A stretch of 64,000 bases of DNA from Cryobacterium arcticum (GTDB taxonomy: Bacteria; Actinomycetota; Actinomycetes; Actinomycetales; Microbacteriaceae): positions 1,426,001 through 1,490,000 of the forward strand of contig NZ_QHLY01000012.1 in the NCBI RefSeq assembly GCF_003185895.1, in the 5' to 3' direction. The notes below the pieces were generated by a model. The model was not told where the DNA came from. It worked only from the letters and a program-made list of their open reading frames with translations, and did not search any database. The stretch's first letter is position 1. Each line of letters starts with the position of its first letter. Below are positions 46,896 through 56,333 of the stretch, piece after piece. Both the position numbers and the translations under genes were made by a program.

Positions 46896-46921
46896 CGGGG
46901 TCTCGACAAGCTCGACCAGCG
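46896..46921. repeat. Dispersed 26-bp GGTCTCGACAAGCTCGACC element, copy 1
   Basis: The sequence beginning CGGGGTCTCGACAAG and ending CTCGACCAGCG occurs here. A copy in the opposite orientation at 55510-55535 differs only by AAG to AGG in the middle. The element is partly palindromic around GTCGA. From memory, similar GGTCTCGACAAGCTCGACC sequences are frequent in actinobacterial intergenic regions. Confidence 0.7.
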
Positions 46922-51959: not shown

Positions 51960-53593
51960 GCCGTCGCCGTTTCCGTCTTCCCCTGTTGCTGCAGGCGCCC
52001 GCCGAACCGATCCGCACCCGGCCGCTCCGGCTCGATGCCCGCACCACGCCGGCCCGCTTCACGCTGCGGGTGATTTTCGGCGCCCGCCGGTTCACCGTGC
52101 CGTCGGCGCTGCTCAGCGTGGTGCATCAGCTCGGCGAGGCGCTCGTGCCGGTGCTGATGGGGCTCTCCATCGAACGCGCCGTGAGCACCGGGGACCTCCG
52201 CCAGCTGCTGCTCTGGCTCACCCTGCTCGCCGCCGACTTCGCGATGCTGTCGTTCTCCTGGCGGTACGGTTCCCGCATCGGCGAGCTCGGCATGCTCGCC
52301 GTGCAGCACCGGCTGCGCAGCACCATCACCGAGCACCTCCTCCGCGCCACCCCCGGCGCCGCGCCCGCGGTGCCTCCCGGGGTGGCGCTCTCTCTGGCCA
52401 CCTCCGACGTGAACCGGCTCTCCTACGCCGTGATGATCGGCATCTACCCGGTGGGCCAGTTCGCCGCGGTGCTGTTCGGCGGCGCCATCCTGCTCAGCCT
52501 GTCGTGGCCGCTCGGCCTGGCCATGCTGCTCGGCGCCCCGCTGCTGCTCTGGGTGACCGACCGGGCCGGCGGGTCACTGCGGCGCCGCAGCGGCGCCGAG
52601 CAGGAGTCCGCCGCGACCGCCGCCGGCCAGGCCGCCGACCTGATGGCCGGCTACCGGGTCATCCGCGGCATCGGCGCCGAAGCCGAAGCGTCGGTGCGCT
52701 ACCGCCGCGCCAGCCGCACCGCCCTGGCCAGCACCCTGCACGCCCGCCGCGCCGAGGGCACATTCACCGGCGCGATGGACCTCGTCACCGGCCTGTTCCT
52801 CACCGCCATCGCGGTCGCCGCCGCCCTGGTCGCCCTCGCCGGTCAGCTCGGCCTGGGCGAACTGATCACCGTGATCGGCCTCACCCAGTTCCTCATCGCG
52901 CCCCTGCAGAACGTGGCCAAGACCGCCGGCACCCTCTGGGCCAGCGGCACCGCGTCGGCCGAGCGGCTGCTCACCCTGCTACGGGCGGATGCGCCGGCCG
53001 GGGCCGAGTCGCCCGCCTCGCTGGATCCGCTCGAGTCGCCGCCCACCGGCATCCGCTCGGCCGGCCTGCTCGAGGGCATCGACGCCGGCGAGATCGTGGC
53101 CGTCGCCGCCGACGGCGTCACCGCGGAGGCCTTGCTCGCCGCGCTCCGCCGTGAGCAGCCCGGTGCCCTGATCGTGCCGCACGCCGCGCACCTGTTCGCC
53201 GGCACCGTGCTCGACAACGTGGCCCTTCCGCTCGTTCCCGCGCACCGGGTGCGGGCCGCCCTGCTCGCCGCCGGCTGTGACGAACTCGCCGAGGTTCTTC
53301 CGCACGGGTATGACACGCCCGTGGGCGAGAACGGCACCGCGCTTTCGGGCGGCCAACGCCAACGGGTGGCGCTGGCCCGCGCCCTCGCCCAGGACGCCCC
53401 GGTGCTGGTACTGCACGACCCCACCACCGCGGTCGACGCCGTCACCGAAGCCGCCATCGCCGGCCGGTTGCGCGGAATCCGCGGCCAGCTGCGCACCCTG
53501 CTGATCACCCGCTCCCCCGCCCTGCTTGCCATCGCCGACCGGGTGCACACCCCCGGCGACGAAGCGCGCACCCTCGCGGAGGCGATCCGATGA
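51956..53593 (+). CDS. Heterodimeric ABC half-transporter A, degenerate nucleotide site
   Basis: A 545-residue half-transporter with an exporter-type six-helix domain (residues about 30-330) followed by a shortened NBD. The P-loop has decayed: the position of GxxGxGKS reads [13 protein letters not shown] (about 382-393), so the Lys is absent. The Walker B Asp488 is followed by Pro489 instead of Glu ([11 protein letters not shown]), and the H-loop His is Arg (LLITRSP). The signature LSGGQ is intact at 463-467 ([16 protein letters not shown]). It therefore cannot hydrolyse ATP by itself but can complete its partner's site. Overlaps on both sides place it inside the iron operon, suggesting an IrtAB-like role in siderophore traffic. 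Confidence 0.88.
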
Positions 53594-55479
53594 CCGCCGC
53601 ATCCGCTGTGCACAGCGACAAGCTGCCCATCGCCGACGGCCGCACCGTGCTGCGCGAAGCGTGGGGCATTCTCGGCCGGCGCTGGTGGCATCTGGTGTGG
53701 CTCGTGCTGGTGCTCGTGGCCGGCGCGGTGGCGGGTATCGTGTCGCCGTTCGCGCTCGGCGCCATCGTCGACGCGGTCAGCGCCGGGCTGGACTCCGGCG
53801 ATGCGTCCCTGGTCTGGGGGCTCGGCGCGCTCATGGCCGGCGCCGTGATCGTGGGCGCGCTGCTCACCGCGCTCGGCGTGGTCGCCGCGTCGAACTTGTT
53901 CGAAACCATGCTCGCGGAGCTGCGCGAGCGCATGGTCGCCGCCGCGTTTGCGCTGCCGCAGGCGCAGGTGGAACGGGCCGGCACCAGCGACGTCATCTCC
54001 CGCGCCGGCGACGACGTGGCCGAGGTCGCCCAGGCGATCCCCAGCGTGGTGCCCGCCGTCACCGGCGCGTTCGTCACCATCGCCGTCACAGTGGTGGGCA
54101 TGGCCGTGATCGACGGCTGGTACGCCCTCGCCCTCGTCGTGATCGTGCCCGTGCACGTCTTCGCGGTGCGCTGGTACCTGCGCACCGCCCCGCAGATCTA
54201 CGCCGGCGAACGCGCCGCGATGGCCGAGCGCACCCAGCACCTGCTGGACTCGCTGCGCGGCATCGACTCGGTGCGCGCCTACGGCCTCGGCGACAACCAC
54301 GTCACCGGCATCGCCCGGGTCTCCTGGGCGGTGGTGCGGTTCACCATGCACGCGCGCGCGGTGCAGAACGCGTTCTTCGCCCGACTCAACTTCGCCGAGT
54401 TCCTCGGCATGGCCGGCCTGCTCATCGTCGGCTTCCTGCTCGTCGGGGCGGATGCCGGCACGATCGGCGGCACCACCGCCGCGATGCTCTTGTTCCTGCG
54501 GCTGTTCAACCCGATCAACCAGCTTCTGTTCGTGGTCGACGAGCTGCAGTCCGCACTGGCCTCGCTGGCCCGCATCGTGGGTGTGATCACGGCGAGCGCC
54601 GACGAGCCGGGGGCGGATGCGTCCGCGTCGGCGCCGCGCTCGGCCGGCGCTCCCGCTGCGATCTCGGCACCGCCGCCCGGCATCAGCACCGCCACCGACG
54701 ACGCCGCCGTCGCCGACACCGCCGACATCACGGTGCCGCCCGGCACCAGTACCGCCACCGACACCGCCGCTGCCGCTGCCGCCGCAGACACCGCTCTTCG
54801 CATCGAGGGCGTCACCCACTCCTACACCTCGGGCCACCGGGTGCTGGAGAACATCGACCTCACCGTGCGCCCGGGCGAGACCGTCGCGATCGTGGGCGCG
54901 TCCGGGGCCGGCAAGAGCACTCTCGCCGCCATCGCCGCTGGCGTGCACACTCAGACCGCCGGCACCGTGCACCGGCCCGGCCAGGTGGTGCTGGTCACCC
55001 AGGAGGTGCACGTCTTCGACACCACCCTGCGCGCCAACCTCACCTTCGCCCGGGCGAACGCCACCGACGCCGAGGTGTTGGATGCGCTCGGCCGAGTGGG
55101 CGCCGACCGTCTCGTGGCACAGCTGCCGCACGCGCTCGACACTGCCCTGGGCGCCGGTGGAGAGTCGCTCACCCCCGCGGCCGCCCAGCAGCTGGCGCTG
55201 GCCCGGGTGCTGCTCGCCGACCCCGCGGTGGTGATCCTCGACGAGTCCACCGCCGAGGCCGGCTCCGCCGACGCCGACCAGCTCGAGCGGACAGCCCGGG
55301 CCGTGGGCGAAGGCCGAGCCGTGCTGCTCATCGCCCACCGGCTCACCCAGGCGGCCCAGGCCGACCGGGTGATCGTGATGGAGCGCGGCCGCATCACCGA
55401 GCAGGGCACCCACGCCGAGCTGCTCGAGGCCGGCAGCGCCTACGCCAGGCTCTGGTCAGTCTGGGCCGAGAACCGCTGA
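53590..55479 (+). CDS. Heterodimeric ABC half-transporter B, catalytic nucleotide site
   Basis: A 629-residue half-transporter, partner of the preceding gene (ATGA overlap). The six-helix domain covers about residues 30-325. A 75-residue Ala/Thr/Asp linker containing two copies of an STATD segment separates it from the NBD. Walker A GASGAGKS (436-443), Walker B VVILDEST (Asp551, Glu552) and the H-loop His583 (LLIAHRLTQ) are intact. The signature, however, is degenerate: LTPAA at 527-531 replaces LSGGQ. Together with subunit A this leaves one composite functional ATP site and one dead site. Mycobacterial IrtAB, which imports siderophore with an exporter fold, is the nearest known analogy; direction of transport is unproven here. 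Confidence 0.88.
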
Positions 55480-55509: not shown

Positions 55510-55535
55510 CCGCTGGTCGAGCCTGTCGAGACCCC
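55510..55535. repeat. Dispersed 26-bp element, copy 2 (inverted)
   Basis: The complement of the 46896-46921 element, with a single internal difference, reading GCTGGTCGAGC then CTGTCGAGACCCCG. It lies 30 bp after the last gene of the iron operon. Confidence 0.7.
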
Positions 55536-55572
55536 GCTGGCCGCGCATCCGCCGCTCGCGCGCTCGAGACGG

Positions 55573-55653
55573 CCGCTAAAAAGGAAATAGTGAGCTAAAA
55601 AGGACTCCTCAGGCGATTTCGTCCTTTTTAGCTCACTAAATCCTTTTTAGCGG
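55573..55653. repeat. Long hairpin with CTAAAAAGGA motifs
   Basis: Arms at 55573-55605 and 55621-55653 are complementary at 31 of 33 positions, with a 15-base loop (55606-55620). Each arm carries the motif GCTAAAAAGGA twice, so four copies are present. The segment is AT-rich compared with its surroundings. It could be the terminator of the iron operon, a small structured RNA, or a miniature mobile element; no flanking target duplication is obvious. Confidence 0.75.
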
Positions 55654-55931
55654 ACGCCCCCCCCCGGCGGCCTGCGTCGCGATATCCGCGCCTCCGTGCG
55701 GGCAGGCGTGTGGCAACCCACTGCTCGGGCCGATGGGCCGCCGGCGGTCACCCAGATCTGGGGGCACGGATGCATCCGCGACGGTCCATTTTCAGCCACG
55801 TGGGCCGACCTCCCGGTCCTGTCCTTCGTACTGAAGCTGGGAAACCCGGCGGACTTCGTGACGAATCGTCCCCCGGGAACATCTCATAAGTGAGGCGAGT
55901 CTTCGACCTCGCCCCTGGTGAAAGGAACCCC

Positions 55932-56333
55932 ATGAACGACAAGATTTCCGAGCAGGCCCACGACTTCGCCGAAGACGCTGCCGACAAGGCGCAGAACGTC
56001 GCGGAAGACACCGCCGACAAGGCCCGCAACCTCGCAGGCGACACCGCCGACAAGGCGCAGGACATCGCCGAAGACGCGGCAGCCAAAGCCCGCGACCTCG
56101 CTGAGAAGGCTCGCGATATCGCCGAGGACACCGTCTCGAATGCCAAGGCGGCTCTTCGCAACCTCGACGACAACACCGAATCCGCCGCCGCGGCCGCGCA
56201 GCAGTATGCGACCGAGACCCTCGACAAGGTCTCCTCGGCTTACAAGCGCGACCCCATCCGGGTCGTCGCGATCGCCACGGTCGGCCTTGCCGTTGTAGCT
56301 GCGATCCTCACCGCACTCACCAAGCGCAAGTAG
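55932..56333 (+). CDS. LEA-like/ElaB-like helical membrane-anchored protein
   Basis: A 133-residue protein. Residues about 8-75 are 11-residue amphipathic repeats rich in Ala, Asp, Glu and Lys (pattern AEDxADKAxxx), similar to group 3 LEA proteins. The C-terminal 30 residues hold a single membrane helix after a KRDPIRVVAIATVGLAVVAA motif and end in KRK, resembling ElaB/YqjD anchors. It may associate with membranes under stress; this is inference. The ATG at 55932 has AAAGGA upstream. Confidence 0.72.
   Translation: MNDKISEQAHDFAEDAADKAQNVAEDTADKARNLAGDTADKAQDIAEDAAAKARDLAEKARDIAEDTVSNAKAALRNLDDNTESAAAAAQQYATETLDKVSSAYKRDPIRVVAIATVGLAVVAAILTALTKRK

Follow-up and report, generated by a model that had tools for sequence, protein, structure and literature searches.

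The described systems closest to the locus reported here are those in which REP or REPIN sequences are paired with a RAYT (TnpA-REP) transposase, also called REPtrons. According to PMC2817692 and PMC3116915, the enzyme gene lies between two palindromes whose cognate copies are dispersed extragenically, the pairing is lineage specific, and the presence of the gene correlates with that of the repeats; RAYT genes are stated in PMC2817692 to be always flanked on both sides. The GTAG- and CGTC-tagged REP superfamilies also consist of short dispersed palindromes. CGTC REPs are said in PMC3733652 to have no dedicated transposase, and the words Actinobacteria, Leifsonia, Microbacterium, and Clavibacter are absent from the main text of that paper. 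A parallel for paired inverted repeats is provided by the type IV antitoxin AbiEi, which autoregulates and binds two inverted repeats of 23 bp separated by 3 bp, and by its relative Rv2827c, which binds two such inverted-repeat pairs (PMC7319586).

The Cryobacterium element described below resembles REPs and REPINs in being a dispersed extragenic palindromic doublet of inverted half-sites, and its layout parallels the paired inverted repeats of AbiEi and Rv2827c. The flanked enzyme gene, the lineage-specific pairing, and the correlation between gene and repeats also have at least partial counterparts here. It differs from the REP-RAYT systems in its length (~90 bp, compared to 20 to 40 bp for GTAG- and CGTC-tagged REPs), in carrying four words at a spacing of 18 to 19 bp, in its lower copy number (eight), and in its partner: RAYT is a Y1 HUH transposase, whereas in Cryobacterium the partner is predicted to be a nuclease of the Vsr/DUF559 type that includes an AbiEi-like part. 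The element was found in a 64,000-nt stretch of the Cryobacterium arcticum genome, hereafter the window, where the following features were located.

55568 to 55657, no strand: whole element, two inverted ~39-bp half-sites and a short center, foldable to a 33- to 34-bp hairpin; from the gapless 16-copy alignment
55569 to 55607, + strand: half-site 1; 32-arm consensus ACGGCCGCTAAAAAGGAAATAGTGAGCTAAAAAGGACGA
55619 to 55657, − strand: half-site 2, inverted; from the arm alignment
55576 to 55585, + strand: word CTAAAAAGGA, outer copy in half-site 1
55595 to 55604, + strand: word CTAAAAAGGA, inner copy in half-site 1, 19 bp from the outer copy
55622 to 55631, − strand: word CTAAAAAGGA, inner copy in half-site 2
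55641 to 55650, − strand: word CTAAAAAGGA, outer copy in half-site 2
53590 to 55479, + strand: context, putative ABC transporter-like gene at the end of the iron operon; stops 89 bp before the element
55932 to 56333, + strand: context, next likely gene downstream, encoding a repetitive small protein (MNDKISEQ...)

The original prediction, made for positions 55573 to 55653, described the hairpin accurately. Its arms pair at 31 of 33 positions, both mismatches being AA versus TT; CTAAAAAGGA occurs twice per arm and exactly four times in the window, where 0.16 matches are expected with one mismatch allowed; and GCTAAAAAGGA was found at the four matching places of the genome sequence. The predicted contrast in composition (GC content of 0.46 for the element, compared to 0.70 for the window) and the location 3′ of the iron operon, with a nine-C run after the hairpin, were likewise borne out. 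Alignment with relatives extended the bounds slightly, to 55568 to 55657. The window copy matched the covariance model on both strands with 89.3 and 88.8 bits, this copy being itself included in the model. The predicted RNA fold of positions 55553 to 55673 has an energy of −61.3 kcal/mol (z = −7.4), which none of 200 shuffled sequences equaled. The stem differs from that of an intrinsic terminator in that it is not followed by a T-run, and a simple scan listed no intrinsic terminator at the hairpin.

A search for further copies had been proposed together with the prediction, and it showed that the sequence is not single copy: eight elements are present in the 4.3-Mb genome, with BLAST, an 11-base pattern, and the covariance model in agreement (since the model matches each element on both strands, 16 hits correspond to eight elements). 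A single-copy terminator was thus rejected, given the eight copies and the lack of a terminator hit. When frames were read by third-position GC, none of the eight copies overlapped a likely gene, the reading for one copy (L029) being ambiguous, and most adjoined the 3′ end of a likely gene; the neighboring genes are unrelated to one another. Five of the eight copies, including that of the window, lie within 106 kb (G000 C9:1481568-1587504; random expectation of ~1e-4), far from the nuclease gene found at 198 kb of this genome.

A gap-free alignment of 90 columns was obtained with 16 copies from six Cryobacterium genomes, the window's genome contributing seven; the remaining own copy, C9:1587415, is absent from this alignment and hence from the covariation and arm-identity tests presented below. 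Of 150 Microbacteriaceae genomes, 17, the window's genome included, contain the element according to the covariance model; they belong to 11 of 85 genera. Among 57 Cryobacterium genomes, the model detected it in 12, the richest of which yielded 53 both-strand hits. Searches of more than 40 genomes were run with stricter filters, so that weak copies may be missed in these counts. No match to the element DNA was found in 15 genomes outside Microbacteriaceae. Two other arrangements were observed in these searches. In G187, five hairpins spaced by ~140 bp and carrying two word types, CAGGA and GATAAGGA, form an array (L093 5400-6045) ~20 kb from the nuclease gene. In G022, a ~1-kb repeat with at least five copies that are 81 to 95% identical (L262, L263, L264, L268, and L269) contains one hairpin inside; three equal-scoring hairpins of this genome lie within the repeat, which indicates hitchhiking and not hairpin transposition.

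Pairs of hairpins located ~1 kb apart enclose one kind of gene in three genomes of two genera. The full unit consists of a hairpin, the gene, and a second hairpin, is ~1.1 to 1.2 kb long, and encodes a product of about 277 to 280 amino acids. The window's genome contains a single nuclease match (E-value cutoff of 0.01), C9:198269-199096; this match is not within the window, and the only hairpin seen beside it is upstream, at a distance of 120 bp. Of 35 loci, 33 entered the protein alignment, L148 being left out since it runs off its contig and L158 for an in-frame stop. The Pfam domain DUF559 was present in all 33 members scanned, MTES_1575 in 32, and AbiEi_4 in seven; PADLOC AbiEi models matched the N-terminal part. 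An AlphaFold2 model based on the 33-sequence alignment had a mean pLDDT of 91.6, and its top five Foldseek hits were the AbiEi antitoxin 6y8q (E = 7e-5), two chains of 3r3p, the I-Bth0305I catalytic domain (TM-score of 0.82 on the target), the putative endonuclease 3hrl, and Vsr (1cw0). A profile or sequence match to 3r3p was also obtained (E = 2e-4). The protein is thus predicted to combine an AbiEi-like N-terminal winged-helix part with a C-terminal Vsr/EDxHD-type nuclease domain. In the 33 sequences, residues D206, D232, and H274 do not vary, and D218, H223, and D236 hardly do; they are putative active-site residues, as D and H at such positions serve in Vsr-type active sites.

As judged from the model, the nuclease would have its catalytic fold in common with Vsr and with EDxHD/Vsr homing endonucleases such as I-Bth0305I, and its N-terminal part matches AbiEi. 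It differs from AbiEi in that the AbiEi-like part is fused to a nuclease domain, and from homing endonucleases in that its gene is extragenic at the sites read, which include at least two different ones in Cryobacterium, and is accompanied by palindromes of its own, others occurring solo elsewhere. Neither an intron nor an intein nor a coding target was seen at the nuclease sites read. At most two nuclease places of substantial length were detected in any Cryobacterium genome, so the nuclease gene itself appears to spread little. Among mobile DNA, partial and distant protein matches were obtained from three Tsukamurella plasmids and one phage record, and no nuclease relative was found on viral contigs. 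A recent phage or plasmid origin was rejected, since the element DNA was unmatched there and the nuclease matches were partial and distant. In G102, two hairpins enclose a nuclease gene whose coding sequence is distributed over two reading frames (L092 2316-3139); many hairpins can thus persist in a genome with a seemingly broken nuclease.

The flanks of the 35 nuclease loci were analyzed next to genes located with protein patterns only, although the query alignment had been built from hairpin-linked genes. These loci belong to Cryobacterium, Leifsonia, Microterricola, Agromyces, Mycetocola, Okibacterium, Glaciibacter, Naasia, Microbacterium, and an unplaced bin. Considering the best palindrome within 450 bp at a score of at least 14, 18 loci had one upstream, 16 downstream, and 10 on both sides, compared to 4 of 261 background windows; as these windows are mostly coding, the flank-to-flank and word-repeat tests weigh more. 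In the former (n = 34, L148 being left out for its short flanks), the left and right flanks of the same locus matched at a score of at least 16 in 24 loci, compared to 3.9% of 1122 mismatched pairs. In the latter, 31 loci contributed 98 palindrome arms, of which 47 repeat a word of at least six bases at a distance of 18 or 19 bp, compared to 1.25 in shuffles and to 1 of 36 arms of background palindromes.

With a laxer flank palindrome threshold (9 instead of 12), a word-bearing palindrome was present on at least one side of 30 of the 35 loci: upstream in 25, downstream in 19, and on both sides in 14. Since RAYT genes are said to be flanked on both sides in all cases, the likeness in flanking is partial. 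The word repeat was not found at L131, L135, L147, L150, and L164. Where an upstream palindrome was found, its center mostly lies ~130 to 190 bp before the nuclease start. A hit of the Cryobacterium hairpin model (E up to 0.1) adjoins the nuclease gene at 23 of the 35 loci; in an earlier set, in which three of the 33 loci had been chosen by their hairpin, model hits flank 13. In the earlier 30-locus protein-search set, 10 loci had no palindrome at a score of 15. One close nuclease relative (58%), L103 of G167, had neither a palindrome at this score nor a model hit; L111 had no palindrome at this score, yet model hits were present on both sides.

The word depends on the lineage, variants including, among others, TAAAAAGGA, GGGAGG, ATTCAGGC, GCAGGAC, AACAGG, and CGAGTAC. 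Each of two nuclease paralogues in Leifsonia sp. Root4 has its own palindrome pair, with scores of 67 and 28 within pairs and at most 12 across them; the distinction is less clear for the paralogues of C. lactosi (within-locus scores of 21 for one and 13 for the other, with up to 15 across). In Mycetocola and Okibacterium, the nuclease gene occupies one chromosomal site whose flanks align at ~77 to 89%, while the nuclease stretch aligns at 70 to 73% in several pairs and not at all between L105 and L108. A diverged nuclease between alignable flanks would fit either fast evolution or cassette replacement; rayt genes are described in PMC2817692 as evolving rapidly. Separately, palindromes flank the more distant DUF559 genes L110, L113, L116, L121, L122, L123, L126, L127, and L129 on one side or on both and carry quite different words, which suggests that the palindrome plan may extend past this nuclease branch.

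Co-occurrence of hairpin and nuclease was assessed at the family and genus levels; all p-values given here are too small because of shared ancestry. Some DUF559 relative is present in 96 of the 150 Microbacteriaceae genomes, so the DUF559 family at large is not tied to the hairpin. In contrast, all nine genomes with the closest nucleases (at least 300 bits, a cutoff chosen after inspection of the list) have the hairpin, compared to 8 of 141 others (p = 3e-10). When the window's genome and the three discovery genomes were removed, the counts were 6 of 6 and 7 of 140 (p = 1.4e-7). Among the 57 Cryobacterium genomes, a DNA match to the nuclease was obtained in 11 of 12 with hairpins and in none of 45 without (p = 6.5e-11); the exception, G003, has hairpins and no nuclease match in this DNA search, which can miss diverged genes. 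In the family draw, the hairpin-containing genomes G107, G123, G144, G161, G170, and G186 have only more distant nuclease relatives, and for G120, which also has hairpins, no nuclease relative was among the matches listed.

Comparison of orthologous sites revealed variation in the presence of both the unit and solo hairpins. One site lies between the end of one gene and the sequence preceding a presumed rpsL gene; G200, G006, G023, and G213 carry the hairpin-nuclease-hairpin unit there, and G000, G188, G209, G218, G003, and G022 lack it. The window's genome (G000) is thus empty at the putative rpsL site, and its nuclease unit sits elsewhere. Five solo-hairpin sites were searched and three were aligned, and at all three some relatives are hairpin-free. 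The hairpin at L271 of G218 is absent in G199 and also in G188 and G022, where the right flank is less certain, and G209 has other sequence there. The one at L273 of G218 is absent in G199, G209, and G022 and present in G003 and G200; that at L276 of G209 is absent in G003 and G022 and present in G218 and G188. No target-site duplication or clean unit boundary was readable at the aligned sites, intergenic divergence hiding the borders, so that at any given site a loss may be considered instead of a gain. A possible GCACCT repeat (G213 compared to G003) is located at a distance from the hairpin edges, overlapping the end of a gene, and was not counted. For the window copy, the upstream flank had no syntenic match in the 56 other Cryobacterium genomes, and the downstream gene had matches of 67 to 71% only.

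To distinguish DNA half-sites from an RNA structure, the two arms were compared within and between elements. In the window's genome (seven of the eight copies), identity is 75% between the two arms of an element and 76% between arms taken from different elements. As the two values are equally high, the hairpin seems to result from each arm separately keeping its half-site, which is the pattern expected of inverted protein-binding sites. In all 16 copies, identity is 70% within and 66% between elements, and pairing (77.6% compared to 72.9%) and double changes (30 compared to 17.5) exceed 500 of 500 column shuffles by a small margin, although the tool warns that related sequences can produce such a signal without structure. 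Some arm-to-arm matching between species is thus indicated. The hairpin had no Rfam match at the gathering threshold, and a known Rfam RNA was rejected on this ground. Of the three identities originally suggested, a miniature mobile element agrees with the eight copies and their presence or absence at orthologous sites of relatives, and a protein-binding array agrees with the four words per element and the associated gene for a predicted DNA-binding nuclease. The third, a small RNA, found no support: Rfam was negative, and own-genome arm pairs are no more alike than arms across elements (seven of eight copies).

Our preferred reading, to which we assign a probability of roughly 0.63, is that the window hairpin is a solo, non-autonomous REPIN-like copy of a two-part selfish system spread by a homing-endonuclease-like nuclease. 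The repeat family, the shared plan, the association, the co-occurrence, and the presence/absence patterns on which it is based were observed, and the fold was predicted; from these we infer binding, cleavage, and copying, with the nuclease as the mover. The DNA-binding part would recognize the word, two per arm and inverted, either in duplex DNA or in an extruded hairpin. The nuclease would then nick or cut at word-bearing sites, and break repair or replication restart may insert a copy of the palindrome, or of the entire unit, at further extragenic sites.

The same palindromes could instead be fixed operators, i.e., binding sites through which the AbiEi-like protein regulates its own gene and a small dispersed regulon, with no mobility involved. 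Autoregulation and binding to paired inverted repeats of 23 bp are documented for AbiEi-family antitoxins (PMC7319586), the upstream palindrome, where it was found, is mostly centered ~130 to 190 bp before the nuclease start, and the arms behave as separate half-sites in the window's genome. We nevertheless regard this explanation as unlikely, since a matching palindrome is also found downstream of many nuclease genes, solo copies in the window's genome are mostly beside likely gene 3′ ends, and both solo copies and the whole unit vary in presence at orthologous sites.

An RNA element of the iron operon, be it a terminator, a stabilizer of the mRNA 3′ end, or a small RNA, would account for the very stable predicted fold, for the position of the hairpin 89 bp past a likely gene end, and, with the caveat of relatedness, for the excess of pairing and double changes over all column shuffles in the 16 copies. 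It is improbable in view of the missing T-run, terminator hit, and Rfam match, of the unrelated genes that other copies adjoin, of the own-genome arm identities, and of the recurrence of the same plan with other words around the nuclease gene. We consider it very improbable that the hairpin is a MITE or REP moved by an ordinary transposase, whether a Y1/RAYT enzyme or a DDE insertion sequence located elsewhere: such elements are, like this one, short, dispersed, palindromic, and extragenic, but paired hairpins enclose the nuclease gene in several genera, and Y1_Tnp (PF01797) was detected in none of the 57 Cryobacterium genomes, while 5 of 14 control genomes were positive. Mobilization by RAYT/Y1 in Cryobacterium was rejected on the latter result. 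As the enzyme that defines a REPtron is missing, the system would work like a REPtron without being one.

We read the palindrome/nuclease pair as mobile or formerly mobile and of a kind for which no description was found, a search of open-licence PubMed Central having returned no published account of DUF559 genes with palindromes. On a broader scale, we lean slightly toward the view that AbiEi-Vsr fusion nucleases which own, spread, and co-evolve with lineage-specific four-word palindromes constitute a class of selfish elements parallel and unrelated to REPIN/RAYT. If this is true, a nuclease of the mismatch-repair or homing type took on the role of moving or keeping repeats throughout Microbacteriaceae, and REPIN-like systems have more than one origin, each with its own, unrelated enzyme. 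The name of the DUF559 proteins, which are common, denotes an unknown function; one of their branches would then own its repeat DNA and gain a testable substrate, and the same would perhaps apply to other DUF559 proteins. The natural enzyme/word pairs would also be available for studying how specificity changes in a winged-helix nuclease.

The window contains a second palindromic repeat, unrelated to the element: GGTCGAGCNTGTCGAGACC and its reverse complement occur at positions 55515 to 55533 and 46899 to 46917. This repeat is also found near other Cryobacterium loci and possibly represents another REP-like family.
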